From Sulfurimonas denitrificans DSM 1251 (lineage in GTDB: Bacteria > Campylobacterota > Campylobacteria > Campylobacterales > Sulfurimonadaceae): a stretch of 64,000 nucleotides of DNA. The position numbers and the translations under genes are program-made. The first letter of the stretch is position 1. Each line of letters starts with the position of its first letter. The notes beneath the pieces were generated by a model that saw only the letters and a list, made by a program, of their open reading frames with translations, did no database searches and had not been told where the DNA came from. Of this stretch, positions 48,484 to 64,000 are shown piece after piece. The stretch lies in assembly GCF_000012965.1 (NCBI RefSeq), contig NC_007575.1, positions 186,001 to 250,000 of the forward strand. Direction: 5' to 3'.

Positions 48484-48729
48484 ATGACAGAGAAAGAAAA
48501 AATGTATATTAAAGAGTTTGGTATGGAGTATCTTACTTTAAAACAAGCTTGTAAAATATGGCGAAAACCCGGATACTCGAAACTCTCAAAGCAGTTGCCA
48601 CAGATAGGCTATAAGTGTGCAGAAGAGCTTATGATTATTCCTAAATATAGGAAGGTAGGGGTTTCTTATTTGTTCAAAATTGCAGACATTTTGAACTTTT
48701 TAGAAGATACGGAAGGTAAACATGAATAA
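48484..48729 (+). CDS. Small basic DNA-binding-like protein
   Basis: The start at 48484 has AAGGAAAAC before it; an upstream in-frame ATG at 48436 lacks a ribosome binding site. The 81-residue protein has a helix-turn-helix-like core (YLTLKQACKIWRKPGYSKLSKQ), similar in layout to excisionase or MerR-like small proteins that read TLKQAA or TVKEAA at the same place. It overlaps the next small ORF by 8 bp. An excisionase-like role in an integrated element is plausible but unproven. Confidence 0.6.
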   Translation: MTEKEKMYIKEFGMEYLTLKQACKIWRKPGYSKLSKQLPQIGYKCAEELMIIPKYRKVGVSYLFKIADILNFLEDTEGKHE

Positions 48730-48934: not shown

Positions 48935-49155
48935 AATTTAGTAAAAAGTGCGCTGGTATTTTCTAGCAATTTAAATGTACCTAAAACGGGCATTATTTTG
49001 ATATACCAAATCGAAAACCAAAACGCAAAAATGCACAAATATAGTAAAAATTCGATAGTGCGTTTAGAAACACTCTACAAATACTTCGTATGAGTATTCA
49101 AAAGCCAAACACAGTTTTTTATGTAAAAACTTAACACACTCAACAGGAGAAAAAA

Positions 49156-50025
49156 ATGATAAAAGAAAAAAGAGAAAGTTTTATACTAAAAAAGGAGCAT
49201 CTTGCAATGTTTCTTGATGAAATAAAGGATGATATAATCAATTATAGTGAGCAGGCCTTAAATCTCGAATTTAATCCAAGTGAATACTATGCTTTTGAAA
49301 GAATAATCAATCTCATCCACGGTAACACACCTGAAAACAAAGACAACTTCATTAAAAAAGCATATCATAATGTTCAAAGGAAAGTATGCTATGTAAATAA
49401 ACAAGATTCAGAACAAGAAGGAAAAACTCCTTTTGAAAAAGGCATTATGACCGCTACTAAGAATCAATATAAAAACGTTAATATGGGAATAATAGAATCG
49501 GAAAAATATAACAACAAAAACATACTTGATAGATCATATATGGGGCTTAACTTTGATACAAAAGATAAAAAAGCAAGCTATGCTGCCGCACGCAATTTCA
49601 GAAAAAAATATAGACCAATTGTCAAAGAAGCAATGGCAAAACTTCGTTATAAATATCACACTTTTAAGAACGCTATTCCTGCTCAAGAGTTCAAACAAAA
49701 TATGAATACTGATGTTTTTAGAGATAAGATTGACTACGAAAGATTGTACAAATATGTTTCATGTTTTGATATAAAACCGACAAAAGAGACTTTTCATTTG
49801 CTAAGAGGCGTTATTTATATCTTATGTCTAAAACACAACCCAAGCCTTGTTCCTGAACACTACAAAAAATCATTGGGAATAATTGGAAAAGAGTTCATCC
49901 CCATCAACAAAGATAGCGAAGAAGATACAAAAGCCAAAGAGGCACTGTTAGAGCTAATGGAAGATATGGAACTTACTCCAGAAAAGTTTGAACAGCTGCG
50001 AAAGGAGTTTCAGAATGAATTTTAA
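49156..50025 (+). CDS. Unknown cytoplasmic protein
   Basis: This 289-residue, strongly charged protein follows a clear ribosome binding site (GGAGAAAAAA). It is mostly helical, with a basic middle (RNFRKKYRPIVKEAMAKLRYKY, about residues 147-168) that could bind nucleic acid, and an acidic C-terminus (EEDTKAKEALLELMEDMELTPE). No motif is known to me. It lies between the excisionase-like gene and a YgjP-like fragment, so a replication or mobility role in the former element is possible. Confidence 0.65.
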   Translation: MIKEKRESFILKKEHLAMFLDEIKDDIINYSEQALNLEFNPSEYYAFERIINLIHGNTPENKDNFIKKAYHNVQRKVCYVNKQDSEQEGKTPFEKGIMTATKNQYKNVNMGIIESEKYNNKNILDRSYMGLNFDTKDKKASYAAARNFRKKYRPIVKEAMAKLRYKYHTFKNAIPAQEFKQNMNTDVFRDKIDYERLYKYVSCFDIKPTKETFHLLRGVIYILCLKHNPSLVPEHYKKSLGIIGKEFIPINKDSEEDTKAKEALLELMEDMELTPEKFEQLRKEFQNEF

Positions 50026-50039
50026 ATCAGATCTAATTT

Positions 50040-50219
50040 ATTATTAAACTGAACCAAATTCAACTTATAAAAAAGCCTAAAGTCTGCATAGAATATGTTG
50101 TTTTTCATGAACTGGTTCATGTTATTTATCCAAATCATTCTAAGCAATTTTATGATTATTTAGCTCTTTATATGGCTTATTGGGAAAAGCGGAAAGATAT
50201 TTTGGAGAAAGGATATTAA
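50040..50219 (+). pseudogene. YgjP-like metallopeptidase, C-terminal fragment
   Basis: Directly after the gene at 49156 one frame reads LIKKPKVCIEYVVFHELVHV, then IYPNHSKQFYDYLA, ending in a stop at 50217. HELVH plus the downstream NHS is the zinc site of the YgjP/WLM group (HExxH...H). The N-terminal two thirds of a ~230-residue protein are missing and there is no start codon, so this is a remnant. In related bacteria this gene often follows type I restriction genes, which hints at a lost restriction system. Confidence 0.7.
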
Positions 50220-50479
50220 AACACTACTCGCTTACCTTTCCTCCCAAACTTTCCTATAGCATTAAATATATCAACCCCATCCCTAAAAACAAGCCTCCCA
50301 AATTTATCTTTGGTAATATCCCAGCCACGGAGTCTTTGATAAATATCTGTCTGAATAGTTCTTTTAGAAACATTAAACTCCTCTGCCAAAGATGAGATAG
50401 TCGGTCTCTCATCTTTAGTGAGCATAGAGAGTATGGAGATAAGTCTAAAGAGTGCTTTGTCATATGATTTTTGTGCCAT
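50216..50479 (-). CDS. DeoR/HTH_11-like transcriptional regulator
   Basis: This 87-residue protein has a winged helix-turn-helix (FRLISILSMLTKDERPTISS, then LAEEFNVSKRTIQTDIYQRL), as in the N-terminal domain of WYL and DeoR regulators, but lacks a WYL effector domain. AAGGAG precedes its ATG at a 7-base distance. It lies 16 bp after a 37-residue peptide gene in one transcript whose promoter is bracketed by an inverted repeat. Autoregulation is likely. The mate may be a small membrane toxin or signal. Confidence 0.75.
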   Translation of the reverse strand: MAQKSYDKALFRLISILSMLTKDERPTISSLAEEFNVSKRTIQTDIYQRLRGWDITKDKFGRLVFRDGVDIFNAIGKFGRKGKRVVF

Positions 50480-50495
50480 AGTAAAACTCCTTTCA

Positions 50496-50609
50496 TTATG
50501 CAGCGTTACTTAAAAGCGGCAGTGCTTGAGTAATACTCACCAAAAGCTCTATTATGAGTATAAAGATTGTATATCTATACTCTTTAGTTAAGTGTCTTGC
50601 CTTTCTCAT
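50496..50609 (-). CDS. 37-residue membrane peptide
   Basis: A short frame starts at 50609 after a perfect AAGGAGCAACAA ribosome binding site and codes for a basic N-terminus (MRKARHLTKEYRY) and one hydrophobic helix (TIFILIIELLVSI), ending at 50496. It lies downstream of a consensus sigma70 promoter and just before the HTH gene. Size, charge and a single helix fit small membrane toxins or regulatory peptides. Function is unknown. Confidence 0.6.
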   Translation of the reverse strand: MRKARHLTKEYRYTIFILIIELLVSITQALPLLSNAA

Positions 50610-50629
50610 TTGTTGCTCCTTTTATCGTA

Positions 50630-50678
50630 TATTAGTATTTAATTAGATTATTATATACTAATACGCATATAGTGTCAA
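50630..50678 (-). promoter_or_regulatory. Consensus promoter bracketed by an operator-like inverted repeat
   Basis: On the minus strand TTGACA (50673-50678), 17 bp and TATAAT (50650-50655) match the sigma70 consensus. A perfect 9-bp inverted repeat TATTAGTAT (50630-50638) and ATACTAATA (50655-50663), 16 bp apart, places one half in the promoter spacer and the other just past the transcription start. It is a likely autoregulatory operator for the HTH protein at 50216. Confidence 0.7.
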
Positions 50679-50745
50679 GATGAAATATTGTAAATCAGTA
50701 TAATTTATGATAGAATTGTCCAAATATAGTATAAAAAGGTGTTTT

Positions 50746-50982
50746 ATGACAAAAGAGCAATTTATTCTAAGGTTAAAAGAGCTTGAAATCTCAAAACAAG
50801 ATTTCTCAGAATTATGCAGAGTTCCCTATTCAACAATCAACAATTGGGGAGTGATGAGAGAAGGCAAACCTTTAGTAATCCCAAATTGGGTAGAACCATT
50901 TTTGGAATACTACGAAAAAGCAAAAAAACTAGAGTATGTTATGCGTGAGATCTGCCAAAAGATAGAGAGTGTTAAGGGTTAG
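50746..50982 (+). CDS. Small helix-turn-helix-like protein
   Basis: The start at 50746 follows AAGG; an upstream in-frame ATG at 50707 overlaps the -10 region and is unlikely. The 78-residue protein reads RLKELEISKQDFSELCRVPYSTINNWG, which has the layout of a DNA-binding HTH (as in Cro/phage regulators), followed by a C-terminal helix. Its stop codon overlaps the 3-prime end of the Fic gene by 4 bp. Likely promoter elements TTGTAA (50688-50693) and TAGAAT (50711-50716) precede it. Confidence 0.65.
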   Translation: MTKEQFILRLKELEISKQDFSELCRVPYSTINNWGVMREGKPLVIPNWVEPFLEYYEKAKKLEYVMREICQKIESVKG

Positions 50983-52109
50983 TCCAAGATTATCTCATAA
51001 GCAGTATTTCTTCCGCTAGACCCCTCTTTTTGTCTTATACAGCCAAGTTCTAAGAGCTGTGCTATGTCTCTTGAAGCATTTGTCGATGCAGTGTCGGCGA
51101 TGCTCATATATTTCTTTTTGCTCAAGTTCCCTTGGAAATTTTCTGCTCCCATATCGAGTATAAAATTAAGTACTTTTATCTCTCTTGCATTAAGCTCATC
51201 ATTTTTGTGTCTATCCCAAAACTTTGTTTTTTGTACGATATAGTCAAGCTTTTTTTTGGTATCAATAAGTGCATTATGCAGGGTAGATAAAAACCACTCG
51301 CACCAATTGGTTATATCAAGAGGATTGTTCTCTTTATTTATATATCCAGTAGTATGCTCAAGTGCGCTGTAATAGCCTTTTCTGTCTGTGTTTATGACAC
51401 TTGACATAGAGTATAGTCTTGAGATCTTGGAGTTTTCTATTTTTGAGAGTACCAGGTCTGTTATAGCTCTTGCGATTCTTCCGTTTCCATCATCAAATGG
51501 GTGGATTATAACAAACCAAAGATGTGCAGTGCAGGCTTTTATCAAACTAGGTTCAGCGGCATTGAACCAATCTAAAAATCTCTGCATCTCATGCTCTAGG
51601 TCAGCTCTAGGCGGCGCTTCGTAAAAAACCACCTCTCTGCCGCGCTCTATTCCTACTACTTCCATGGTCTCTTCGCCTCTAAATGATGCTGTATTTACCT
51701 TGCGTAATCCACTGTATCCTTTTGGAAAGAGAGCATTGTGCCAACCAAATAGCCTCTCCATCGTCAACTCTTTGTCATAGTTAGTATTTGCATCTATAAG
51801 TATCTCTATAAGATAATCTGTCGTCTCATCTATTTTTTTATAGTGTATCTCTTTGAATCCAAGCTTTTTTTGAATTGAGGCTTTTACGCTATCGCGGTTT
51901 AGAATCTCTCCCTCGATGGCAGAAGTGCTTATAGCCTCATTCATCAAGGATTCAAAGCGTCTTTGAAGGATATTGTCTTTATCTATGGTTTGTGCAAGAG
52001 CGATTAAGTATCCTTGTTCAAGAGAGACTTTTTGTATCAAACTCTCTAATCTTTTTAAGTCATAGGCAAAGTTTGGATACTCACTTTGTTGCCAAATCCA
52101 ACGTTTCAT
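50979..52109 (-). CDS. Fic family protein (DUF4172 plus Fic), class II with inhibitory helix
   Basis: This 376-residue protein begins with a DUF4172-type domain (MKRWIWQQSEYPNF) and the inhibitory motif SAIEGE (63-68), and has the catalytic Fic core HPFDDGNGRIAR (203-214), with all residues needed for AMP transfer. A winged-helix-like C-terminus (residues ~300-370) may bind DNA. Fic proteins of this type AMPylate protein targets and control themselves through the inhibitory Glu. A GAAGGAAAG ribosome binding site precedes the ATG. Its 3-prime end overlaps the small HTH gene by 4 bp. Confidence 0.9.
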   Translation of the reverse strand: MKRWIWQQSEYPNFAYDLKRLESLIQKVSLEQGYLIALAQTIDKDNILQRRFESLMNEAISTSAIEGEILNRDSVKASIQKKLGFKEIHYKKIDETTDYLIEILIDANTNYDKELTMERLFGWHNALFPKGYSGLRKVNTASFRGEETMEVVGIERGREVVFYEAPPRADLEHEMQRFLDWFNAAEPSLIKACTAHLWFVIIHPFDDGNGRIARAITDLVLSKIENSKISRLYSMSSVINTDRKGYYSALEHTTGYINKENNPLDITNWCEWFLSTLHNALIDTKKKLDYIVQKTKFWDRHKNDELNAREIKVLNFILDMGAENFQGNLSKKKYMSIADTASTNASRDIAQLLELGCIRQKEGSSGRNTAYEIILD

Positions 52110-52229
52110 AATCTTCTTTCCTTCAAATAGTGCGATTGCTTTGTATAATCATACCATAAATGGTGTGAATAAGTTGGTTATTTGTACCACATTTTATATA
52201 TGATAATGCAGTATCACTAAAACGAAACC

Positions 52230-52643
52230 ATGCTTTCACTCACATTTCTTATACTTTTTATAAAAACAGAAGAAGGTGATGGCGTGGCTCTTGAAATCTT
52301 TAAACTCTCAATCATACTTGGCTTTGCATTGGTGCTGCTGCACTTCTCGGCTTTAAAAAAGAGTGAGAAACCTTCACTGCGGACTGTACCCTTTATCTTT
52401 ATGGGCTCCTTTGTATTTGTAACCATACTCTCATATCTCTTTGCGCTCTATGACAACAGTTCCATTAAAGAGAAAAGAAGAGCGTTTTATGATGAGAACT
52501 CTTTTATCTGTGAAACCGGAGCGTTTAAAAAGAAAGAGCATTATCTTGTCTCTATAAAAGATGGATGGAGCGTTTATGAGGATAATTACTTTAAAAAAGA
52601 GGATCTGCTATTAGAGATCAGTAACTGTGAGCAAAAGAGGTAA
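52230..52643 (+). CDS. Small membrane protein with C-terminal YFK-ED-LLEI domain
   Basis: This 137-residue protein has about three hydrophobic segments (residues 1-11, 24-40, 53-70) and a soluble C-terminal domain of about 60 residues. This domain (EKRRAF...FICETG...WSVYEDNYFKKEDLLLEI..C) is shared with the protein at 53906. No ribosome binding site is obvious at 52230. It starts the small-protein cluster and ends 7 bp before the NYN-like gene. The family is unknown to me. Confidence 0.65.
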   Translation: MLSLTFLILFIKTEEGDGVALEIFKLSIILGFALVLLHFSALKKSEKPSLRTVPFIFMGSFVFVTILSYLFALYDNSSIKEKRRAFYDENSFICETGAFKKKEHYLVSIKDGWSVYEDNYFKKEDLLLEISNCEQKR

Positions 52644-52650
52644 TGCGTAG

Positions 52651-53148
52651 ATGGTTTCATTTTTTTGTTTTGAGAACTATTTTCAAGCCGTTGATGAAGA
52701 TGTTATAAAAGAGGTAACTTGGGGAAGCGGCAACTACAGAGAAAAAGCACTGCTACTTTGGGACCTGGAGAATATCCCTTACAGCCATCTTCCAAAAGTA
52801 AAGCAATCACTTAAATTCGCTCCCGAGAGATCTTTTATCATCTCCACTCAAACTATCAATCCCTCTAAACTAAAATCGATACATAGAGAAGGGTTCGAAG
52901 TTTTAAGGGCACATAAGAGCGATAGTGATGAAAAGATAAAGAGTGTCTACAGAATCCTCAAAGAGTATGATGAGTTTATATTTATCTCCTCTGACAGCGA
53001 CTTTGTGGATATCGGAAAAAAGATACTCTCTGAGCGTAAAAAACTCACTTGGATCATGCAAGACGCCAATAAAAAACGCATAGCCATGAAGATGAACCTG
53101 TGCGATAAAAATCTAAAACTCATCACCCTTAGCAAGTTTGAGCTTTAA
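52651..53148 (+). CDS. NYN/PIN-like domain protein
   Basis: This 165-residue protein reads ALLLWDLENIPYSHLPKV (with Asp38 and Asn41) and then FIFISSDSDFVDIGKKIL (Asp115, Asp117, Asp120). This DxxN...SxDSDF pattern is the acidic site of NYN-type ribonucleases, which belong to the PIN superfamily. The spacing and the order strand-helix-acid fit, and the size is near that of a minimal domain. It lies between two small genes in a plus-strand cluster. RNA cleavage as part of a defence or toxin module is inferred. Confidence 0.75.
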   Translation: MVSFFCFENYFQAVDEDVIKEVTWGSGNYREKALLLWDLENIPYSHLPKVKQSLKFAPERSFIISTQTINPSKLKSIHREGFEVLRAHKSDSDEKIKSVYRILKEYDEFIFISSDSDFVDIGKKILSERKKLTWIMQDANKKRIAMKMNLCDKNLKLITLSKFEL

Positions 53149-53223
53149 AAATAAAAAGAGCGAAACAACGTCCGCACTCCCATATCTTACAATTACACTA
53201 TATCAAAAAAACAAGGAGAGCCA

Positions 53224-53646
53224 ATGTCAAAAATACTCTACAGCAATGTAAATATCTTAATAGATGAGCACAACAGAGAGATACTTGTCAATCCGGCAGA
53301 TGAGCGTTTTTACTATATAGGGCATAAAGAGATGCATAGTGTTTTTTTCGATGCAAGGCTCTCCTTGAACGAGAATGGCATCTATACCATAGAGGGGAGA
53401 CAGACAATCTATAGTGAACACAGCGCTATGGGAAGCGACTATGAAAAGCTTCTTTGCAAGCACCCAAAAGAGCTTATAAAGAAAAGCTCGCTCTTCTGGC
53501 TCTTTGGGCTTTATAAGGTAAGAGGAGTGCATAAAAGAGAAGTGTACTGCAAATATATCTGCAGATACAAAGAGTACTGCATCATACAAAGAGAGAAAAT
53601 CATCTCCTCAGAGTTTGCAGAAGATAAAAGTGAGTTAAAAAAGTAA
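53224..53646 (+). CDS. Unknown small protein, probably frameshifted at its 3-prime end
   Basis: This 140-residue protein follows a strong AAGGAGAG ribosome binding site. It has no membrane helix, and it contains a Cys/Tyr-rich segment (YCKYICRYKEYC, about residues 109-120). The frame ends with TAA at 53644 in an A-rich tract. In the +1 frame the sequence continues as KKIGDKFVKEDKIVSISECM up to a stop at 53714, only 2 bp before the next start. The tract may thus hold a frameshift mutation. It belongs to no family I know. Confidence 0.6.
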   Translation: MSKILYSNVNILIDEHNREILVNPADERFYYIGHKEMHSVFFDARLSLNENGIYTIEGRQTIYSEHSAMGSDYEKLLCKHPKELIKKSSLFWLFGLYKVRGVHKREVYCKYICRYKEYCIIQREKIISSEFAEDKSELKK

Positions 53647-53653
53647 AAAAATA

Positions 53654-53689
53654 GGAGACAAGTTTGTCAAAGAAGACAAGATAGTCTCC
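53654..53689 (+). repeat. Nested stem-loop between small genes
   Basis: GGAGAC (53654-53659) pairs with GTCTCC (53684-53689), and inside TTGTC (53664-53668) pairs with GACAA (53675-53679). It lies just after the A-rich tract that ends the gene at 53224. It may be an mRNA structure or part of the frameshifted coding sequence. Confidence 0.45.
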
Positions 53690-53718
53690 ATATCAGAGTG
53701 CATGGAGCGAGAATAGAG

Positions 53719-53889
53719 ATGCTAATAGATCAAGAGACACTGATACTTATAAGAGAGTTTTTACCAAGTACAAAAGAGCCGCCGTTTCTTACCTATTTTA
53801 TGGTAGGTCTTTTTTTAGGAGTAGTAGTTGTAATAGTAAGATTCAAGAGATATAAAAAAATCAGAGAGCTTTTTATGAAGCTTTTTTAA
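53719..53889 (+). CDS. Small single-pass membrane protein
   Basis: The start at 53719 lies 2 bp after the stop of the +1 frame of the preceding gene; a GTG at 53698 in the same frame is an alternative. The 56-residue protein has a hydrophobic helix (FMVGLFLGVVVVIV, about residues 27-40) followed by a basic tail (RFKRYKKIRELFMKLF). No family is recognised. It is 16 bp from the next gene of the cluster. Confidence 0.5.
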   Translation: MLIDQETLILIREFLPSTKEPPFLTYFMVGLFLGVVVVIVRFKRYKKIRELFMKLF

Positions 53890-53905
53890 CAAAGGAGATA
53901 AAGAG

Positions 53906-54190
53906 ATGAAGAGTATTTTAGAGAGTTTGGTAGCTATTATTGTTGTAGGAACCATATTTATGGGGATTTTATATCTGTTAAAACTAGGCATTAACCATAC
54001 GAACTCATTTGATATGGATGAAAAAGTAGAGGCGTTTGAAAATCAAAAGACGCTCCTTTGCTCAACCGGCATTACTAATAACCAAAAATTGCTTGTCAAT
54101 AAAAACAACAACTGGGAGATTTATAAAGAGAAGTACTTTAAAAGAGAGGATATGCTTTTAGAAATACGCATCTGCATGGTAGAGGAGTAA
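53906..54190 (+). CDS. Small membrane protein, paralogue of the one at 52230
   Basis: A ribosome binding site AAAGGAG precedes this 94-residue protein. It has one membrane helix (about residues 7-27) and a C-terminal domain alignable to that at 52230: EK..AF, C-TG, LLV, W-IY, YFKREDMLLEI and a last cysteine. Two cysteines and the YFK-ED-LLEI block are conserved. The duplication within 1.7 kb suggests that both are parts of one function. Localisation is probably the inner membrane with a soluble domain on one side. Confidence 0.65.
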   Translation: MKSILESLVAIIVVGTIFMGILYLLKLGINHTNSFDMDEKVEAFENQKTLLCSTGITNNQKLLVNKNNNWEIYKEKYFKREDMLLEIRICMVEE

Positions 54191-54195
54191 AAACA

Positions 54196-54375
54196 ATGAG
54201 AACGCCTGATTATGTAGTTATTATGATTGGGCTCTTTTTTATTGCAGAGAGTTTGAGCAGTGCTTTTGCAAGTTATAAAATGCGAGATTGTGAAGATGAA
54301 AAAAAGATACAAGAGCTTGAAGAGCACGTTAAGAGGTTTGAAGAAAAATTAAACAAAGATGACAATCTGGGCTAA
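54196..54375 (+). CDS. 59-residue membrane-anchored coiled-coil protein
   Basis: A short frame with GGAG 9 bases before its ATG codes for MRTPDYVVIMIGLFFIAESL, then a helix rich in Glu and Lys (EDEKKIQELEEHVKRFEEKL). One membrane segment is followed by a coiled coil. It starts 5 bp after the stop of the gene at 53906, so it is co-translated. No family is recognised. It might multimerise with the neighbouring membrane proteins. Confidence 0.6.
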   Translation: MRTPDYVVIMIGLFFIAESLSSAFASYKMRDCEDEKKIQELEEHVKRFEEKLNKDDNLG

Positions 54376-54409
54376 ACTTTATAATATTTTTATTTTTAGA
54401 GAGCTTTAA

Positions 54410-54655
54410 ATGAAAAATTATCTGATTTTAGAAAACTATAGGATGCTTATTAAAAAAGATGAGCTAAATAGAGTATTTCTATCTTATGCTATAAACAGTG
54501 GAAATGAGATTATAGAACATACGGAGGGGATTTTAAAAGTTGTAAACTGCGAAATCGCTGATGCGATGTATAAATATTTTGATACTGATTTAATATCTTA
54601 TGGAGTGGAGGTTTTTGATGAGAATACAGAGTTTGTGAATCAGTCTGAATATTAG
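54410..54655 (+). CDS. Small acidic protein of unknown function
   Basis: This 81-residue acidic protein (MKNYLILENYRMLIKKDELN) follows a weak GAGAGC ribosome binding site and ends the small-gene cluster. No motif or membrane helix is seen. The short alternating hydrophobic pattern suggests a beta-rich fold. Confidence 0.5.
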   Translation: MKNYLILENYRMLIKKDELNRVFLSYAINSGNEIIEHTEGILKVVNCEIADAMYKYFDTDLISYGVEVFDENTEFVNQSEY

Positions 54656-54716
54656 AAAAAGAAGATCAAAATAGGAAATATTTGTTTAAAATGTACGCAT
54701 TTAGTAAAATTATTTT

Positions 54717-54968
54717 CTATTCCGGTATTAAATCATGCAAAGATATGTCTAAAATACGAGATATTTTAAAAAGTTGCTCTAAACTAAAATGTTTCTCATA
54801 TTTGTAGAGCTCGGCTTTTGCAATGTGTCCAACAGAATTATGACCTATGGCTAGAGCCAACTGCATTTGAGAAATCTTTTTTTCTTTTCTTGCATTTTTG
54901 ACATTTTTCCCAATATCTCGATAGAAATTTTCTAGTTCTGCTGGAGTCAAATCATTCAAAATATGCAT
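54717..54968 (-). CDS. XRE family transcriptional regulator
   Basis: This 83-residue protein has a Cro/C1-type HTH (about residues 18-75: IGKNVKNARKEKKISQMQLA, then LAIGHNSVGHIAKAE, then FKISRILDISLHDL). Its ATG is preceded by AGGA inside a half-conserved CTATAG palindrome (54969-54981). A perfect 18-bp palindrome with the same core lies at 55022-55039, between it and the divergent gene at 55091. It probably represses itself and that gene. Confidence 0.8.
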   Translation of the reverse strand: MHILNDLTPAELENFYRDIGKNVKNARKEKKISQMQLALAIGHNSVGHIAKAELYKYEKHFSLEQLFKISRILDISLHDLIPE

Positions 54969-54981
54969 AATGTCCTATAGG
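54969..54981. promoter_or_regulatory. Second, half-conserved CTATAG operator
   Basis: AATGTCCTATAGG shares AATGT-CTATAG with the perfect palindrome at 55022 and touches the XRE start codon. Binding here would block translation or transcription start of the regulator. Confidence 0.5.
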
Positions 54982-55021
54982 TAAAGTATGTATAAGTTTA
55001 TAGTTGTTAGAATTGTTTTGA

Positions 55022-55039
55022 AATGTTCTATAGAACATT
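55022..55039. promoter_or_regulatory. Perfect 18-bp palindromic operator
   Basis: AATGTTCTATAGAACATT is fully self-complementary and lies midway between the divergent XRE gene and the gene at 55091. Size and place fit a homodimeric Cro-like repressor site. Confidence 0.65.
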
Positions 55040-55090
55040 AAATGGATATTTTTAGTAGACTTGTAGTAAAAAAATAAATAGGAATCTAAA

Positions 55091-55450
55091 ATGGCACTTT
55101 CAGAAGAAGATAAATTGTGGATTGAGAAAATAAGAAAAGATACCGAAAGAGAAGAGCGAGAGTTAAAAAGAAGAGGCATTATTCCTTATACAGAAGATGA
55201 GCTTGAAGAGATTAATGCTAAAAAAGCAGAAATGCGTGAACAAGCTAGGTTTGCGGCAGAAGCTCTAAAGAAGGTCAGAGTTTCTAAGATTGGCTTTGAA
55301 AGTTCCCATTATGTGGACCTCACAGATGGAATAGACATAAATCTTGCAATGGATCTGACAAGTACAACATACATAAATCCAGCAACAGGATTTCCAATGA
55401 TAAGTGGTATTGGCGGCCTTGATAGTGGAGGTAACACTTATGGTTTTTGA
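55091..55450 (+). CDS. Unknown coiled protein under the XRE switch
   Basis: This 119-residue protein has an acidic/basic coiled N-terminal half (EREERELKRRGIIPYTEDEL) and a C-terminal glycine-rich tail (GFPMISGIGGLDSGGNTYGF). A ribosome binding site TAGGA precedes the ATG. It lies opposite the XRE gene across the palindromic operator and is therefore its likely target. The tail repeats TDGIDINLAMDLTSTTYINP resemble phage or structural proteins only loosely. Function is unknown. Confidence 0.6.
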   Translation: MALSEEDKLWIEKIRKDTEREERELKRRGIIPYTEDELEEINAKKAEMREQARFAAEALKKVRVSKIGFESSHYVDLTDGIDINLAMDLTSTTYINPATGFPMISGIGGLDSGGNTYGF

Positions 55451-55523
55451 AATGATTCGTGAAAACGGGTGCACCAGAGAACTTGATACACAGCTCTTTA
55501 TTTTAAAGTAAAAGGTTGAAAAA

Positions 55524-56681
55524 ATGATTCGTAAATTAGTATTAATAATTCCAGCATTAGTTTTTGCTTTTGGAAACAAGCAGCAATATGAAATTGATCA
55601 AAAAGCACAACAGATAGGTTTCTCAAAAATATTTGATAAATATAAAAATGGAATTCTTGAACCAAGTTCACTTGAATTTAATTCAATGGTATATGATGAT
55701 AGTAATAATATAATAATTGCCGGTGCAAAATCGGGTAAACCCATTGTACGAAAAGTTGATGTGCATGGTAATGAATTATGGAGAAAACAATATGGAGATG
55801 ATTATGGTGGGGTACAATATATTGAAAAAGCCTCTGAAAACACCTATATTTTAATAAGAAACACAGAGGATAAAAAAAATAAAAATTCTTTTTTAACTCA
55901 AGTTCTACTTATTGATACATATGGCAATCTTAAGGGCGAATCTTTATTTCCTCTTCTTTTGGATGAAAATTCTAAAATTAAACAAACAAATGACAAAGGA
56001 TTTATCTTAGTTAGTGGCACCAATATAATTAAAATGGATGCCAATGGTTTTAAAGTTTGGCACCAAACATATGAAAATTTAGATCTTAATGATTTTATAG
56101 AGTTAGTTAATGATGAATATCTTTTTGTTGGCAAAAAAAATATAGATGAGAAAAAAATTGATAAAAGTGCACATATAATGAGAACCGACAGCAAAGGCAA
56201 TATTTTATGGAATAAAGATTATACAAACATAAATGAATTTCAAAATATTATAGCAAAACCAAATGAGCTTATTCTAATGGGAAATATGCCATTGCAAGTA
56301 ACAATAACTAAAATAGATCAAAAAGGGAATATTATATGGAATTATATACATACAGCTAGTGAAAACACTTTTGGCCGTGATTTTATAGAAAATAAGTCCG
56401 GTAATTTTGTAGTTGCTGGAAAAATTTATATGTCGAGTGTCAAATCTGAGTATTTAATGATATTTGAATTAACTAACAATGGCGAACTCTTATGGAATCA
56501 TAGTTACGGGCTTAGTTATGGAAGTGATACTGCCAACTCAATTTTAGAAGCTCCAGATGGATATATTATGTCTGGCGTTATTACACCTATTGAACACAAA
56601 CGGAACGAATCTGGTTTTTTTCCTAGCAGAGAACGTGGTTGGATATTTAAAGTAAATAGGCAAGGTGTTTACAGTGATTAA
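55524..56681 (+). CDS. Secreted repeat protein, beta-propeller-like
   Basis: This 385-residue protein has a short signal peptide (MIRKLVLIIPALVFAFG). After it come at least five repeats of about 45 residues, each with a G-N-x-LW or similar strand: GNELWRKQYGDD, GFKVWHQTYEN, GNILWNKDYTN, GNIIWNYIHTAS and GELLWNHSYGL. This is the pattern of WD40/PQQ-like beta-propellers that are secreted or periplasmic. No enzyme motif is seen. It lies in the accessory island with AAAAGG upstream, and may be a surface lectin or decoy. Confidence 0.7.
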   Translation: MIRKLVLIIPALVFAFGNKQQYEIDQKAQQIGFSKIFDKYKNGILEPSSLEFNSMVYDDSNNIIIAGAKSGKPIVRKVDVHGNELWRKQYGDDYGGVQYIEKASENTYILIRNTEDKKNKNSFLTQVLLIDTYGNLKGESLFPLLLDENSKIKQTNDKGFILVSGTNIIKMDANGFKVWHQTYENLDLNDFIELVNDEYLFVGKKNIDEKKIDKSAHIMRTDSKGNILWNKDYTNINEFQNIIAKPNELILMGNMPLQVTITKIDQKGNIIWNYIHTASENTFGRDFIENKSGNFVVAGKIYMSSVKSEYLMIFELTNNGELLWNHSYGLSYGSDTANSILEAPDGYIMSGVITPIEHKRNESGFFPSRERGWIFKVNRQGVYSD

Positions 56682-57103
56682 TGGAAAAATATTAAATCAC
56701 TAATATTAAACTACCAATAAAACATTGAAATAACAACTTTTAAAATGTCGTAGGCGGAATCTATTTTGGCCGTTTTGTGTATAAGCAAGCCTTTGTTTTA
56801 GGCTTTTTTCATTGTAAATTATGCTGATTTTGGCTCCGCCTTTGACATAGTGAATCTAAGAGAATATACAGATCATACCTATGTATCACTTGATTTTACA
56901 TCTAACTCATTTGAATTAAGACATAGAACCTCGGAAGTATTAAATTAATTGCTTAATATAGGATGTTATTTTAAGCGAAAAGATATTAACATAAGCACTT
57001 ACCATTTTTGGGCAAAGGTCTATTTTGAATATTTTCTACAGTTTTAATATTAACTCTCTTTTAACATATAAGACTAGTATATTGAGAATTAAAAAGGATA
57101 CAT
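56682..57103. other. Gap with terminator and a gene remnant
   Basis: This 422-bp gap holds a hairpin terminator (56787-56810), an outer 7-bp inverted repeat AGGCGGA/TCCGCCT (56752-56758 and 56835-56841) and a start-less frame (about 56803-56948) reading VNYADFGSAFDIVNLREYTD. The last looks like the 3-prime remnant of a gene. The rest is AT-rich and carries the rmuC leader. Confidence 0.5.
56787..56810 (+). terminator. Rho-independent terminator
   Basis: AAGCCT, a 7-base loop (TTGTTTT) and AGGCTT followed by TTTT form a textbook intrinsic terminator about 105 bp after the secreted repeat protein gene. Confidence 0.75.
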
Positions 57104-58984
57104 GTGGAGTTTGAAATAACAATTGCCGTATTGGTTTTATCAGTTGTCGTCATAAGCTCTGTTGTCTGGATGCGAAAAAGCATTCAAAGCTCACCTGATG
57201 CAACTCTACAAAACGAATTGAATGAAAAGCGTGATTTAGCCGCACGAGTCCCTCTTTTAACTGAAACCATAGAAAATCTACGAGTTGAAAACAAAGATCT
57301 ATTGCTATCAATAGATACCCATAAAACTTATTTATCCCAAAAAGATGTCACCATTGCCGAAAATGAAAAAGATCTCATTGAGTTTTCAAAAAAAGTTACA
57401 TCTACAGAAAATCGAGTTGTTAAACTCGAAAATGAAAAAAATGAATTAAATATATCTGTCGAAACGCTAAAAAGTCAGCTGCAACAAGCCAAAAACGACC
57501 TTGATAAAAAAGAACATGAATTACAACAATTAAATCTTGGTTTCCAAAAAGATATTGAACGCTTGAACAACAAAAATAGCGATTTACAAAATGAGATTAA
57601 TGTACATAAAGATGAGTTAAGAATAGCTCAAAAGAAAATAGATAATTTACTTGAAGAAAATACTGCTTTGCAAAGTGAAAAATCAGTATTACAAGCTAAT
57701 TCAAACGCCCTAAATGAAAGTAAAAATGAGTTGCTTCAAGCAATCAAACTCTTGAAAGATGATCTTACTTCTGCACAAGTAAAAATAGAATCCTTACAGG
57801 AAAGCAATGGCGAACTTAAGGCAGAAAAATCTAAATTCCAGGCAGAACTTTCTGCACAACAAGAAAACAACGAAAAACTCAAAAAAGATTTTGAAGAACA
57901 GAGTAAAAAGCTTGAGCTAAAACTCAACGAAATCATGCAACAAAACCTTGATAGCAAACTAAAAAAATTCGATGAGACTTCGATGAAATCACTTGATGGC
58001 TTGCTAAAACCTTTTAAAGAGAATCTTGATACATTCAAGAAAAAGGTCGAAGACTCTCAAGAAAACAGTACCAAAAAGTTTGCCGAGCTTTCCAAAGAGA
58101 TAGAGCAAGTTACCAAAGCAGGGATGAATATTAGTAAGGAAGCCGAAAGCCTCACAAAAGCACTCAAAGGCAAAAAACAGATGCAAGGTAGCTGGGGGGA
58201 GATGATACTTGAAAGCGTACTTGAATATTCCGGTTTACGTAAGGGTGCGCACTATGAGACACAAGAAAGTTATAAAGATGAAGAAGGAAATACTAAACGC
58301 CCTGACGTGATCATAAAACTACCGCAAGAGCGGACGATCATCATCGACTCGAAAGTCTCACTAAATGATTATAGCAACTATATACATGCAGAAACTGATG
58401 AAGAACGTCTATTGGCAACCAATGGTATCGTGACATCATTTAAAAACCATATAGACACACTTGATAGCAAAGATTATGCTCATTACAAAGTTGGGACGTT
58501 GCAATACGTCTTTATGTTTGTTCCGATTGAAGGTGCCTTTGCTATGGCAATACAACAAGATCCAAAATTGTATGAGTATGCACTCAAAAAACATATTGCC
58601 ATAGTCAACCCTTCTACATTGACCGTTTCACTAAGAACTATATACCTTTATTGGCAAAGTGAGCAGTCAAATACTTTGGCATCAAAACTCTTTGACGAGG
58701 CGGGAAAACTATATGACAAGATGGTTGGATTCTCTGATAGTTTTGGAAAAATTGGAAAACAGTTGCAGAGTGCAACAAGTACATATGAGCATGCTCATAA
58801 GCAATTAACAGAAGGGCCTGGTAATTTAATGGGGCGTGTTGAAAACCTGAAACGGCTTGGTGCACGAACTTCAAAAACATTGAAAGATTCAAAAATGGAA
58901 TTTCAAGATTTTGATGAAGCAGAGATGGAGATTGAATTGCTACCAGAGCCTGTGATCGAAACGCTTTCATCAGATGATGATTAA
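57104..58984 (+). CDS. rmuC: DNA recombination protein RmuC
   Basis: The 626-residue protein starts with GTG at 57104, preceded by AAGGA at a 5-base distance; an ATG two bases earlier is in another frame. It has an N-terminal membrane helix (about residues 4-22), a long coiled coil (about 35-290) and the RmuC nuclease-like domain (about 330-600, with QGSWGEMILESVLEYSGL, RPDVIIKLP, IDSKVSLNDY and FVPIEGAFAMAI). RmuC limits inversions at short repeats and is found in defence islands. It precedes the SIR2 gene by about 110 bp on the same strand. Confidence 0.93.
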   Translation: MEFEITIAVLVLSVVVISSVVWMRKSIQSSPDATLQNELNEKRDLAARVPLLTETIENLRVENKDLLLSIDTHKTYLSQKDVTIAENEKDLIEFSKKVTSTENRVVKLENEKNELNISVETLKSQLQQAKNDLDKKEHELQQLNLGFQKDIERLNNKNSDLQNEINVHKDELRIAQKKIDNLLEENTALQSEKSVLQANSNALNESKNELLQAIKLLKDDLTSAQVKIESLQESNGELKAEKSKFQAELSAQQENNEKLKKDFEEQSKKLELKLNEIMQQNLDSKLKKFDETSMKSLDGLLKPFKENLDTFKKKVEDSQENSTKKFAELSKEIEQVTKAGMNISKEAESLTKALKGKKQMQGSWGEMILESVLEYSGLRKGAHYETQESYKDEEGNTKRPDVIIKLPQERTIIIDSKVSLNDYSNYIHAETDEERLLATNGIVTSFKNHIDTLDSKDYAHYKVGTLQYVFMFVPIEGAFAMAIQQDPKLYEYALKKHIAIVNPSTLTVSLRTIYLYWQSEQSNTLASKLFDEAGKLYDKMVGFSDSFGKIGKQLQSATSTYEHAHKQLTEGPGNLMGRVENLKRLGARTSKTLKDSKMEFQDFDEAEMEIELLPEPVIETLSSDDD

Positions 58985-59095
58985 TTTCTTTTGCTATTTG
59001 GACTCAATGATAAGGAACGTGGCATCCAGAGCACACTATCAGCAAATCATCTGATGTTTTAGAAACTACTCAACATATAGAAGAGGAAAAACAAT

Positions 59096-60103
59096 TTGGA
59101 AGAAATATTAGAAAAAATATATAGACAGGCACAAGATTATTTCAGTAATTCACCAGTCATCGTTTTAGGTAGCGGAGCTTCAGCAGCCCATGGATTACCT
59201 GGGATGTGGCAACTTTCTGAATACTTAAAAAACAATATTATCCCGAATCCAGAACATCTAAAATCATGGAATGAATTTATTGAATTACTAAATAATGGTG
59301 TGGACTTAGAAAGTGCTTTACATCAAGTGACTCTACATCCAGATATCACTAAAGATATCATCATAAAAACATGGGAGCTTATAAATCCCAAAGATATAGA
59401 AGTATTTAATTCAATTGTAGCTTCAAATGCTATGTTACCACTTTCTACCATCATAAAAAAATTATTTAACAGTACTGCTAGCGATCTTAATATCATCACA
59501 ACAAATTATGATAGGTTGGCAGAATATGCATGTGATATTGAAGGTTACTACCATTATAGTGGCTTTACCAGTGGATTACTAAGAACTAAAGCAAATAAAG
59601 ATTATTTGAAAACAAAACGAAAAGTAAATATTTGGAAAGTTCATGGATCACTTGATTGGTTTAGAAAAGAAAATAATGATTTGATTGGATTATCAAATCT
59701 TGAAAGTTATCCAGCATCATTGCTTCCAGAAATTGTTACTCCTGGAATTGAAAAGTACAGTAAAACACATTTAGAGCCTTATCGTACGATTATTCATGAA
59801 GCTGATAACGCTTTAGAAACAAGCAATAGCTATCTATGTATTGGCTATGGATTTAATGATAAGCATATCCAAGAAAAATTGGTCAATAAATGTGTTCATG
59901 GCAATGCTAAATTATTAATTCTTACTCGCAATCTTACAGAAGCAACACAGGAGTTCATCACTACAAAAGGTTGTAAAAATTATTTAGCTTTTGAAATTGA
60001 TAATGAAGTAGACACTAAAATATATTCTTCACTTCTTGCAGAACCCATTGTTATCCCAAATATGAACTTTTGGTCACTTAGTGGCTTTTTACAATTAATT
60101 TAA
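59096..60103 (+). CDS. SIR2-like domain protein (SIR2-HerA type)
   Basis: This 335-residue protein starts with TTG at 59096 after AGAGGA. It has the NAD-binding GSGASAAHGLP (25-35), TTNYDRLAEYA (135-145), KVHGSLDW with catalytic-type His183, and a late YGFNDKHIQ loop near 265. These are the marks of SIR2-like proteins that cleave NAD+ in phage defence. No zinc-finger cysteines as in sirtuin deacetylases are seen. The HerA gene follows after 12 bp, so the pair matches the SIR2-HerA NADase defence system. NAD cleavage in this protein is inferred. Confidence 0.88.
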   Translation: MEEILEKIYRQAQDYFSNSPVIVLGSGASAAHGLPGMWQLSEYLKNNIIPNPEHLKSWNEFIELLNNGVDLESALHQVTLHPDITKDIIIKTWELINPKDIEVFNSIVASNAMLPLSTIIKKLFNSTASDLNIITTNYDRLAEYACDIEGYYHYSGFTSGLLRTKANKDYLKTKRKVNIWKVHGSLDWFRKENNDLIGLSNLESYPASLLPEIVTPGIEKYSKTHLEPYRTIIHEADNALETSNSYLCIGYGFNDKHIQEKLVNKCVHGNAKLLILTRNLTEATQEFITTKGCKNYLAFEIDNEVDTKIYSSLLAEPIVIPNMNFWSLSGFLQLI

Positions 60104-60115
60104 TAAAGGAAATCC

Positions 60116-61855
60116 ATGCCAATTTTCAACTATCAAGACCATGAAACGTTAGGTAAAGTAATTTCTGTTGACACTGGAGTTGTCATTATTGAAGTGTCCG
60201 ATTTAGAAAAATTAAAACGTTTACAAGTTAATAGACTCGTTGTACTGCAAAGTTCCAAAGCAGAACAGTATTTGATTGGTTTAATTCAAAAACTGATGAG
60301 AAAAAAAATATTTGATGAAGAACTAGAAGAGGAAGAATTCAAAGAAGAAAATCTCTGTAAAATAACTTTAATTGGTACATTTAAAAACAGAGAAGGCACT
60401 CAAGAAAATGTTTTTAGAAGAACGTTGGAAACGGTACCAGAAATTGATGCAAACTGCTTTGCTCTGGAGGACGATAAATTAACAAGCTTTATGCGTGTAA
60501 TTTCCCAATCCAGTGGGGAAGGAAATGCATTATCTATAGGAAACTATACTTTAGATGAAAATGCTAGAGCATATATCAATGGCAATAAACTATTTCAACG
60601 TCATGCCTTTATAGGTGGCAGTACAGGGTCAGGAAAATCGTGGACTACTGCAAAAATAATCGAACAAATGGCTCAACTTGAGAATGTTAATTCCATTATT
60701 TTTGACTTGCACGGTGAGTATAAGCCTCTACAAAGTATTGATAATATTGAATATTTTAAAATTGCCGGACCTTCAGATATTGAACAAGAAAAAGGGATTG
60801 AAGACAATGTACTATATATTCCTTACTGGCTATTATCATATGAAGCTCTAGTATCAATGTTTGTTGATCGAAGTGACCAAAATGCCCCTAACCAATCTAT
60901 GATTATTGCCCGTGAGATTAGAAATGCCAAGGAAGCATATTTAACAAGTAAAAGCGAAACTGAAATTTTAAAAAATTTTACCATTGATAGTCCAATCCCT
61001 TTTGATTTGGGTGGATTACTGACAACGTTAAATGTAATTAACTCAGAAATGGTTCCTGGTGCAGCTCCTAGGAAAGAGAAAATGGGTGACTTTAACGGCA
61101 AGCTCAGCCGAATGATATCTAGACTAGAAAATAAAATTTCAGACAGAAGATTAGGTTTCTTATTCCAAGGTGGTGCTGATGTTATGGAATTTGAATGGTT
61201 GAATAAATTGGTAAAAACAACCATAGGCGTAAAATTGGAAAATGAAAAAGCAGGTATTAAAATTATTGACTTTTCCGAAGTTCCGTCTGATATATTGCCA
61301 TTAATCGTAAGTCTTATAGCTCGTTTATCTTTTTCAGTACAACAATGGACCGAATCATCTAAACGACACCCTATTGCGTTACTTTGTGATGAAGCGCACT
61401 TATATATACCCGATAAAAATAATAGTAATTCTAGTGATGAAATATCACTCAAAATTTTTGAACGCATTGCAAAAGAGGGACGAAAATATGGAGTTAGTTT
61501 AGTTGTAATTAGTCAGCGACCATCAGAAGTTAATAGAACGGTATTGAGTCAATGCAGTAATTTTATTGCAATGCGATTAACGAATACTGATGATCAAATG
61601 GTCATTAAAAAATTACTACCAGACAATTTAGGTGGATTTGGAGACATACTTCCTATTCTTGATACAGGTGAAGCTCTTGTCGTAGGTGATGCAAGTTTAT
61701 TGCCAAGTAGAATCAGAGTTGATAAACCGACAATAACGCCTGATAGTGGAACTATTGAATTTTGGGATGAATGGCAAATTGCTACAGATCCAACTAGATT
61801 GGATTCTGCAATAGAAAATTGGCGAAAACAAAGCATACAAGTTATATCAGTATGA
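60116..61855 (+). CDS. herA: HerA-type hexameric ATPase/helicase
   Basis: This 579-residue ATPase has an N-terminal HAS-like barrel (about residues 8-60, ETLGKVISVDTGVVIIEV), Walker A GSTGSGKS (168-175), IIFDLHGEYKPL near 198-209, Walker B LLCDEAHLYIP (DEAH at 425-428) and the late RLTNTDDQ and GEALVVGDA stretches typical of HerA/FtsK-like DNA translocases. HerA works as a hexamer with a partner nuclease or, in defence, with SIR2. It lies 12 bp after the SIR2 gene with an AAAGGA ribosome binding site. The next gene starts 51 bp further on. Confidence 0.93.
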   Translation: MPIFNYQDHETLGKVISVDTGVVIIEVSDLEKLKRLQVNRLVVLQSSKAEQYLIGLIQKLMRKKIFDEELEEEEFKEENLCKITLIGTFKNREGTQENVFRRTLETVPEIDANCFALEDDKLTSFMRVISQSSGEGNALSIGNYTLDENARAYINGNKLFQRHAFIGGSTGSGKSWTTAKIIEQMAQLENVNSIIFDLHGEYKPLQSIDNIEYFKIAGPSDIEQEKGIEDNVLYIPYWLLSYEALVSMFVDRSDQNAPNQSMIIAREIRNAKEAYLTSKSETEILKNFTIDSPIPFDLGGLLTTLNVINSEMVPGAAPRKEKMGDFNGKLSRMISRLENKISDRRLGFLFQGGADVMEFEWLNKLVKTTIGVKLENEKAGIKIIDFSEVPSDILPLIVSLIARLSFSVQQWTESSKRHPIALLCDEAHLYIPDKNNSNSSDEISLKIFERIAKEGRKYGVSLVVISQRPSEVNRTVLSQCSNFIAMRLTNTDDQMVIKKLLPDNLGGFGDILPILDTGEALVVGDASLLPSRIRVDKPTITPDSGTIEFWDEWQIATDPTRLDSAIENWRKQSIQVISV

Positions 61856-61906
61856 CAAGGGAATAAGTATGAGAAATAAATCACGGATAAAATTTTTGAG
61901 GTTAGC

Positions 61907-64000
61907 ATGGAAATTGATATAAGTAAAATTTCTAATCTGGATAACAAAGTGAGCAATGAACCAATTATAATTGAAGCTAAGTTTTCACCAAAGTTTAATC
62001 TCGCTTTTTTGCAAAACTCAGTACTCGTATTACTTGAATTAAATGTGGTCAATAATAGTGATCAACCTTTGAGTAATTTAACCTTGACCTTAACATCAAC
62101 ACCTACATTCATTAAAGCAAAAGTATGGAATATTGAAACCATCGTAGCACAACAGAGATTTGACATTCACGATCGCAACATACAACTAGACAATGCTATG
62201 TTGCTGGATTTAAATGAGTCTGAAAGCGTACATATTTCTCTATCACTCACATCGAATGAAAATGTTATCGCAACTTTTGAACAGACGCTTGAGTTATTAC
62301 CACGCAACCAATGGAGTGGTATCAGTCATATGCCTGAAATGATCGTTGCCTATGTACAGCCTAATGATACAAAGGTTGAACATTTACTGAAAAAAGCAGC
62401 TTCAATTTTACGTGAACATAACAAGGAAGCATCTTTAAATGGATATATCGGAGGTTCTACCAAAGCGTGGGAAATATCTTCTGCAATTTGGACTGCAATC
62501 GGTTCTTTAGGACTTGATTACGCCTTGCCACCAGCGAGCTTTGAGCAAACAGGTCAAAAGATTCGTACTCCCGGTCAAATCTGGGAAACAGGTCTTGTTA
62601 CATGTTTGGACAGTACATTGTTCATTTGTGCGGCATTAGAACAATGCGGACTAAATCCTATCATCATATTCACGAAAGGGCATTCATTTGCGGGGGTTTG
62701 GTTAAAAGATGAAGAGTCCTCTACTGTCATTATCGATGACATAACTGCCATTAGAAAGCGCATAAAACTAAAAGAGCTTGTAGTATTTGAAACAACCTTT
62801 TTAACTAAACGACCTTGTCCCTCATTTACTAAAGCTATCGAGCAAGGAGAAAAACAACTTGCAGAAGGTGAAGATGATATGTTTGAGATGATCATTGACA
62901 TCAAACGGGCGAGAATGCAACGTATCAAACCACTCTCTAGTTTAGACAGCAAAGCCAATGCCACACCTTTAGTCCAGGAAGCAGAAAGTTTAGACCCGAT
63001 TTTTGATGAAGCCCCGGACTTACCTGATGATGAAATACTGCATAACGAAGAAATTTCATCTAAACCTACCGATCGACTTGATATGTGGCAACGTAAGCTT
63101 TTGGATCTTTCTCTGCGCAATAATCTTTTAAATTTTCGCACGAATAAGCGAATGATTAAACTCGATGCCCCAAATCCAGGACAACTGGAAGACCGTTTGG
63201 CGGATGGAAACACTATACGGATAAAACCGCGACCGGATTTAATGAATGGTTCCGACCTTCGTGATAAAACAATTCACGAATCAAGAGAATTGGAAGATAT
63301 CCATAAAGTGCACGCTTTAGATGCACTACAAAGAAATGAAGTCTTTGTTTCAGTTAATACAGAAGAGTTGGAATCACGCCTCACGGAACTCTACCGAACT
63401 GCTCGGGCAACACTTTCTGAGGGTGGTTCAAACACGTTATTTTTAGCAGTCGGATTTCTCTCATGGACACGAAGTGACAAAGATGACAAACGTTATCGGG
63501 CTCCGCTCATACTGATTCCGGTAATCCTAAATCGTAAAAGTATGCGTGAAGGGTTTAGTCTAGTTCTACATGATGACGAAGCTCGTTTCAATCCTACTCT
63601 AGTGCAGATGTTGCGACAAGATTTTGAGCTTGAACTTCCCATTGATCAGCGAGAATTACCTAAAGATGACCATGGATTAGATATCTCCGGTATTTGGCGG
63701 CAGGTATCTAATGCCATTAAGGATATAAAAGGATGGGAGGTTTCAGAAGAAGTTGTTCTCTCTACCTTCTCATTTGCCAAGTACCTTATGTGGAAAGATT
63801 TGATTGATCATACAGAACAATTAAAACAAAATCCGGTTGTTCGCCATTTGATTGAAACACCTAGAGACCCGTACCCTAGTAACGTTACTTTTACTGATCC
63901 AAAAAAACTCGATGATGATTATGCTCCAGACAAAACGTTTTGCCCATTACCGGTGGATTCTTCCCAACTCTCTGCTGTAATGGCTTCAGCCAAAGGTAAA
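61907..64000 (+). CDS. DUF4011-containing SF1 helicase-type protein with N-terminal transglutaminase-like domain (runs off window)
   Basis: An ATG at 61907 opens a frame of 698 codons without a stop up to the window edge. Residues 1-130 are beta-rich. Residues 190-290 form a transglutaminase-like unit with Cys233 (TCLDSTLFICAAL), His259 (GHSFAGVWL) and Asp277 (VIIDDIT). The DUF4011 signature MWQRKLLDLSLRNNLLNF begins at 393, and PLPVDSSQLSAVMASAKGK at the end (680-698) is the Q-like motif just before Walker A of superfamily 1 helicases. The whole matches Hhe-type (DUF4011-helicase-Vsr) defence proteins, but helicase and nuclease parts lie outside the window. It follows herA by 51 bp on the same strand, with no good ribosome binding site. 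Confidence 0.85.
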   Translation, partial: MEIDISKISNLDNKVSNEPIIIEAKFSPKFNLAFLQNSVLVLLELNVVNNSDQPLSNLTLTLTSTPTFIKAKVWNIETIVAQQRFDIHDRNIQLDNAMLLDLNESESVHISLSLTSNENVIATFEQTLELLPRNQWSGISHMPEMIVAYVQPNDTKVEHLLKKAASILREHNKEASLNGYIGGSTKAWEISSAIWTAIGSLGLDYALPPASFEQTGQKIRTPGQIWETGLVTCLDSTLFICAALEQCGLNPIIIFTKGHSFAGVWLKDEESSTVIIDDITAIRKRIKLKELVVFETTFLTKRPCPSFTKAIEQGEKQLAEGEDDMFEMIIDIKRARMQRIKPLSSLDSKANATPLVQEAESLDPIFDEAPDLPDDEILHNEEISSKPTDRLDMWQRKLLDLSLRNNLLNFRTNKRMIKLDAPNPGQLEDRLADGNTIRIKPRPDLMNGSDLRDKTIHESRELEDIHKVHALDALQRNEVFVSVNTEELESRLTELYRTARATLSEGGSNTLFLAVGFLSWTRSDKDDKRYRAPLILIPVILNRKSMREGFSLVLHDDEARFNPTLVQMLRQDFELELPIDQRELPKDDHGLDISGIWRQVSNAIKDIKGWEVSEEVVLSTFSFAKYLMWKDLIDHTEQLKQNPVVRHLIETPRDPYPSNVTFTDPKKLDDDYAPDKTFCPLPVDSSQLSAVMASAKGK

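Follow-up and report, generated by a model that had tools for sequence, protein, structure and literature searches.

SIR2-HerA and ProA as probable neighboring systems in one defense island

The last genes of a 64,000-nucleotide stretch of Sulfurimonas denitrificans DSM 1251 (contig NC_007575.1, positions 186,001 to 250,000 of the forward strand; hereafter the window) most probably represent two neighboring defense systems, the two-gene SIR2-HerA pair and the one-gene system ProA, placed side by side in one defense island rather than joined into one new machine, a reading to which we assign a probability of about 85%. Both kinds of system are known already. The plus-strand run comprises RmuC, SIR2-like, HerA, and DUF4011 genes, the last encoding ProA, with successive gaps of 111, 12, and 51 bp. 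An earlier reading made from the letters of the window (hereafter the sequence-only reading) had described these four genes together with the 12-bp SIR2/HerA and 51-bp HerA/DUF4011 spacing, and it was borne out by the reading frames and family matches. As the surrounding genome is a single contig of 2.2 Mb, ProA could be read beyond the window end; the complete gene (L003:7908-13172, which equals window-equivalent 61907-67171, numbering continued past the window) encodes 1754 amino acids. The region that carries all four genes is flanked by perfect repeats of 24 bp at a tRNA-Leu gene (Table 1). Labels beginning with L and G denote the loci and genomes compared.

Separate occurrence of SIR2-HerA and ProA

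Results revealed that, in the sequence covered, a SIR2 or HerA match was near ProA in none of 29 loci from the genome collection (E ≤ 1e-4; 24 of them with at least 7 kb of upstream sequence), in none of 7 further loci from the class of L040, and in none of 3 plasmid loci (L074-L076), giving 0 of 39 loci with ProA or ProA-like proteins, distant and partial ones (L061, L063-L066, L174) included. On the other side, ProA was beside HerA in none of 19 other HerA loci, save a 24%-identity helicase-core match in L067, where the gene is MkoA-like, and three remoter loci (L097-L099) without ProA or RmuC raised the count to 0 of 22. These 19 loci were hand-picked (14 of the listed plasmid hits, four Campylobacterota genomes, and one viral contig) and are partly redundant, with L121 similar to L126 and L072 to L073; L067 and L071, which are the same plasmid, were counted once, and nine further HerA loci with about 1.5 kb of flank (L175-L183) were left out.

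The same separation was observed at the level of whole genomes and replicons. Across 397 Campylobacterota genomes, HerA (E ≤ 1e-30) was detected in 8 and a ProA-like protein (E ≤ 1e-30) in 8, with both only in the genome of the window; at about 40% identity, the ProA-like proteins of the other seven genomes are possibly members of a different DUF4011 family. Among 369 genomes from the class of L040, HerA (E ≤ 1e-60) occurred in 9, ProA (E ≤ 1e-150) in 8, and both in none. For 24 of the 29 ProA collection loci the source genomes were also screened for HerA (E ≤ 1e-20), and one gave a match, which was partial (37%). No accession was common to the best 40 of 652 HerA plasmid records and the best 40 of 436 ProA plasmid records. 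Viral contigs yielded no ProA locus and one HerA locus (L089), with SIR2 and without ProA. Phage records gave two matches to each protein, one of them short in either case; the longer ProA match was near-full-length (95% covered, 34% identity), and the longer HerA match, annotated as terminase, spanned 82% at 33% identity. In addition, seven remoter DUF4011 loci of other Campylobacterota (L090-L096, about 40% identity), which were kept out of the 39, showed no SIR2, HerA, or RmuC in the stretches fetched, and in a search of 11 genomes the helicase core of ProA was weakly matched (E about 1e-5) in G318, G006, and G381.

Because the two systems occur separately in related loci, the run is read as part of a defense island rather than as a single machine. 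The sequence-only reading had left the choice between one composite system and two neighboring systems in a defense island, and had held that finding SIR2-HerA and the DUF4011 gene usually apart would speak against the former. They are indeed usually apart, so that of its two options the neighboring systems are favored and the composite is not.

The SIR2-HerA pair

The SIR2-first adjacent pair that defines SIR2-HerA (Nezha) is present in the window, and the same pairing prevails elsewhere, with SIR2 and HerA together in 17 of the 19 other loci and HerA only in 2, the first-start calls giving gaps of -25 to 13 bp; L123 was counted among the 17 though its HerA is cut short. SIR2 residues N137 and H183, in the contexts TTNYD and KVHGS, were invariant in 18 of 18 aligned SIR2 proteins (its own included), and HerA K174 and D425-E426 were invariant in the 18 near-full-length proteins among 20 HerA proteins. 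Judged by motif rather than by an alignment to that protein, N137 and H183 would be equivalent to N168 and H227 of the Vibrio cholerae SIR2. According to the report on that system, substitution N168A or H227A abolished resistance, SIR2-herA still gave resistance after the remaining island had been deleted, and relatives of the pair form a 12:6 complex that depletes nicotinamide adenine dinucleotide (NAD+) (PMC11559045). The same V. cholerae island lists Gabija adjoining SIR2-herA (PMC11559045).

None of the NCBIfam equivalog cutoffs was reached (HerA_antiphage_2, 312 of 850 bits; HerA_antiphage, 165 of 800 bits; SIR2_antiphage, 29 of 500 bits). Because these cutoffs were missed while PADLOC models match strongly, we file the pair as a putative diverged branch of the Nezha kind, not as one of those equivalogs. 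It resembles Nezha in the gene pair, its order and tight spacing, the SIR2 Asn and His residues, the HerA Walker motifs, and the strong PADLOC matches, but differs in scoring below the NCBIfam cutoffs and in having ProA next downstream.

Other neighborhoods of SIR2-HerA were also observed. The Aliarcobacter faecis plasmid locus L071 (3200-14972), with SbcD-like, SbcC-like ATPase, SIR2, HerA, DUF6602 (PD-DExK-like), and MkoA-like helicase genes in one direction, is another stack around SIR2-HerA. At L068 (8098-11868), the next gene downstream overlaps the pair by 1 bp and encodes an HNH-type protein similar to endonuclease effectors of the cyclic-oligonucleotide-based antiphage signaling system. 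The system is broken beside insertion sequence elements in L123 and L124, with HerA shortened in Serratia symbiotica and SIR2 missing in Roseibium.

Identity and domains of ProA

The DUF4011 protein was identified as ProA by the NCBIfam equivalog NF058533 ("anti-phage protein ProA"; 2193 bits against a cutoff of 1500, profile positions 1-1713 of 1903), and the PADLOC model PDC-S37 scored 1230 bits. The label Hhe (DUF4011-helicase-Vsr, NF042953), which the sequence-only reading had given to this gene, was rejected at 849 bits against a cutoff of 2000; the protein has the same types of domain as Hhe but, below that cutoff, is not a member. Pfam matches comprise DUF4011, a superfamily 1 (SF1) helicase, and an MTES_1575 nuclease. 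ProA may correspond to the DefenseFinder subtype "Prometheus," a guess, as the literature passages give the name alone, and no founding paper for ProA was found in the literature searched.

When 28 ProA proteins were aligned, K710, D1342, E1343, D1671, and D1690 were conserved in 28 of 28 and E1688 in 27 of 28, and by motif these residues would have catalytic roles. The alignment takes 24 of the 29 collection loci, omitting L041, whose frame is split, together with L061, L063, L065, and L066. In L041 (9944-15876), from a metagenome-assembled genome (MAG), ProA appears as two overlapping frames of 1003 and 984 amino acids, by decay or sequencing error. Residues C233, H259, and D278 were each present in 26 of 28 proteins, and from these residues and a 2013 analysis (PMC3710099) the N-terminal part can be read as transglutaminase-like. 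A profile of this part retrieved chance-level chains only from the PDB (E of 0.044 and above), and its AlphaFold model was poor outside about residues 20-130 (mean predicted local distance difference test score of 56.8).

In the 2013 analysis, giant proteins with transglutaminase, SF1 helicase, Vsr nuclease, and winged helix-turn-helix (wHTH) domains were proposed to perform restriction without a methylase (Biol Direct 2013, PMC3710099). The protein studied here resembles them in its SF1 helicase, its Vsr-type MTES_1575 nuclease, and the C/H/D residues fitting a transglutaminase-like domain, but the wHTH/DUF3320 part is missing. As a side observation, a large DUF4011 gene, possibly not ProA, is reported to form the conserved right flank of a defense hotspot in all the Pseudomonas aeruginosa isolates of another study (PMC10250203).

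A near-identical ProA behind Gabija

ProA here scores over the NF058533 cutoff and carries the conserved motifs but has nothing after the nuclease domain and no DUF3320. The number of residues past the nuclease domain was none here, 5 in L038, 37 in L058, and 227-288 in 25 of the 28 aligned proteins; DUF3320 was recognized by Pfam in L040 and was absent here and in L058. Moreover, the C-terminal end of L040 had no match in L003 or L038 past the nuclease domain. A DUF3320 end is common in ProA but may not be required for membership. As another possible DUF3320-less ProA, the 1778-amino-acid frame in G583 was rejected, its gene running to the contig end.

The nearest ProA found was that of a Sulfuricurvum MAG (L038), a 94% identical protein of 1745 amino acids that, like the 1754-residue protein here, ends with the nuclease domain. 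At the DNA level the match has sharp edges, covering L003:7951-13165 at 91.9% identity over 5217 bp, from 43 nucleotides after the ProA start to 7 nucleotides before the gene end, and no other match to the genome of the window was found in the 20-kb stretch compared. Upstream of the L038 ProA lie SbcD-like and SbcC-like genes (the SbcC Walker-B model just under the cutoff), GajA (822 bits), and GajB (736 bits), and this Gabija pair ends 43 bp before ProA. The two loci are thus alike in carrying ProA directly behind a two-gene system, but the upstream genes differ, being RmuC, SIR2, and HerA in one and SbcD-like, SbcC-like, GajA, and GajB in the other. Near-identical ProA genes are thus preceded by SIR2-HerA in one of the two genomes and by Gabija in the other.

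Weighing the alternatives

SIR2-HerA and ProA would most likely act independently, as cargo of a tRNA-Leu integrative island in which the two-gene SIR2-HerA is followed in the same direction by the one-gene ProA, with an extra RmuC ahead. By analogy with relatives, a large complex of SIR2-HerA would hydrolyze NAD+ upon infection and so halt phage replication. ProA, judged by its domains and by the 2013 analysis (PMC3710099), may work as a single-protein helicase-nuclease against invading DNA, with no partner methylase involved. Recombination within the island would have brought these defense cassettes side by side, and they are perhaps transcribed together. Several points weigh against this reading of two neighboring systems. 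The 51-bp gap, the shared strand, and the lack of a terminator-like match between HerA and ProA would allow a single transcript, and a common operon can imply common function; both DUF3320-less ProA genes of this lineage closely follow a two-gene defense system (≤51 bp); flanks are short in several of the loci counted (L039, L050, L061, L063, and L064, as well as L162 and L174); L060 is a second locus with RmuC next to ProA (below); and to the right of the island, no homology to the congeners G463 and G287 is seen again before window-equivalent 83.1 kb, so that the right edge is not simple. Concerning transcription, the consensus scan found no terminator-like match from SIR2 to ProA, and promoter-like 9-of-12 matches lay near the HerA end and the ProA start, with all counts at the level of shuffled sequences (promoters, 34 found and 38.6 expected; terminators, 6 found and 6.6 expected). 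An independent promoter and terminator, which the sequence-only reading had named as further evidence of separate systems, were not found between them in these scans, and SIR2-HerA and ProA are possibly cotranscribed.

Such operon-like spacing without a terminator-like match would suit a single composite, in which ProA, on unwinding or cutting phage DNA, hands a signal or DNA end to HerA-SIR2, with NAD+ depleted as a result. The composite would also suit the truncated C terminus of ProA and its L038 sister, since a partner could supply recognition in place of the region that the 2013 analysis reads as a DNA-recognizing wHTH (PMC3710099). Against it, each part was found without the other in the remaining loci and genomes examined, the L038 sister has Gabija rather than SIR2-HerA upstream, and the G+C content of ProA (0.392) is unlike that of SIR2 (0.311) and HerA (0.340), as plain values without a statistical test; we consider a composite unlikely. 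A related and doubtful idea is that DUF3320-less ProA is an exchangeable "executioner" cassette. It would have lost its proposed DNA-reading winged-helix end and be docked, at a distance of no more than about 50 bp, behind a two-gene system that supplies recognition (SIR2-HerA or Gabija), the whole being a hybrid of parts that move independently. C-terminal winged-helix domains were proposed to recognize invading DNA in the 2013 analysis (PMC3710099). The two operon ProA genes without DUF3320, being 94% identical, count as a single loss, and the third such ProA (L058), which stands alone, speaks against this idea. If DUF3320-less ProA does depend on its neighbor, the pair of loci would offer a handle on how one-protein helicase-nuclease systems recognize phage DNA. 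That the four genes are degenerate passengers devoid of defense activity is very improbable, considering that all four frames are open and that SIR2 N137/H183, HerA K174/D425-E426, and ProA K710/D1342-E1343/D1671/E1688/D1690 match the conserved residues of relatives. On the reading of two neighboring systems, a neat run of four genes can consist of defense cassettes that move separately and have been stacked together. A natural comparison set is available: ProA following SIR2-HerA, near-identical ProA following Gabija, SIR2-HerA on its own, and a related island that lacks all four genes.

The sequence-only reading had allowed for RmuC as the upstream member of a composite system, and this fared poorly: an RmuC match was found in 0 of the 22 other HerA loci (0 of the 19 nearer ones), and 38 of the 39 other ProA or ProA-like loci were without it in the sequence covered. 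The exception is L060 of Caballeronia megalochromosomata (9962-19086), where an 811-amino-acid RmuC-domain frame (38% identity over 318 amino acids) begins 83 bp after ProA. The island RmuC is 37% identical to a second RmuC in the same genome, and among 61 family genomes its closest relative (75%, or 70% when a longer stretch is compared) lies in G126, which gave no other RmuC hit and no HerA or ProA hits. Judging from their translations rather than from a family search, the frames flanking the G126 gene would be xseA and ubiE. Most simply, the island RmuC is an extra housekeeping-type gene carried as cargo. A working defense role, for instance as a nuclease partner tethered to SIR2-HerA or ProA, seems rather improbable given this distribution, even with RmuC lying 111 bp upstream in the same direction within the island, with the L060 arrangement, and with the antiphage system Shield, which is reported to employ an RmuC domain. 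The best PADLOC hit of RmuC was a reverse-transcriptase-associated model (RTasRmuC), and no reverse transcriptase, which that model requires nearby, was found in the 19 proteins scanned with Pfam, some small island frames being unscanned.

The tRNA-Leu island

The island is bounded by the two repeats (Table 1), and its mobility is probable from this structure. In the congener G463, an element of about 3.3 kb (L157) has the same two repeats and ends 92-93% identical to those of the island, with none of the four genes, and related left ends follow the tRNA in several other congeners. A second copy of the tRNA-Leu 3' end also lies downstream in congeners, about 3.3 kb away in G463 and 4 kb away in G287, and likewise in G239, G378, and G340, so that the tRNA-Leu 3' end looks like a recurrent integration site. 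Sequence from the right of the island was found beside the tRNA, as at an empty site, in 0 of 29 congener loci, with at most about 1.5 kb past the tRNA covered. Because homology to congeners resumes only at 83.1 kb, more foreign or lineage-specific DNA may be present to the right of the island.

Table 1 Features of the tRNA-Leu island and its defense genes (window numbering; positions above 64000 are window-equivalent)
Feature	Position	Strand	Remarks
RmuC	57104-58984	+	626 amino acids, GTG start; Pfam PF02646 6.9e-98
SIR2-like (predicted NADase)	59096-60103	+	TTG start; SIR2_2 PF13289 2.2e-11; PADLOC SIR2 1.3e-131
HerA ATPase	60116-61855	+	DUF87/HerA 4.1e-31; PADLOC HerA 1.5e-244; also matches solved HerA chains
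ProA (DUF4011, SF1 helicase, MTES_1575 nuclease)	61907-64000 in window, onward to 67171	+	DUF4011 5.8e-52; first 698 of 1754 amino acids in window
Left attachment repeat	45611-45634	.	24 bp: 3' end of tRNA-Leu (tRNA 45550-45633) plus one base
Right repeat, identical 24-bp copy	70744-70767	.	Exact match beyond window
Island part inside window	45635-64000	.	Continues to 70743; 25.1 kb, repeat-bounded
Tyrosine integrase	67559-68698	-	Just inside right end of island
HipA-like gene	68763-70343	-	Just inside right end of island
SoFic-like Fic protein	50979-52109		Island cargo; family matches
NYN-domain protein	52651-53148		Island cargo; family matches

In addition, positions 55091-55450 weakly matched TraS, a plasmid entry-exclusion protein (1.2e-6).

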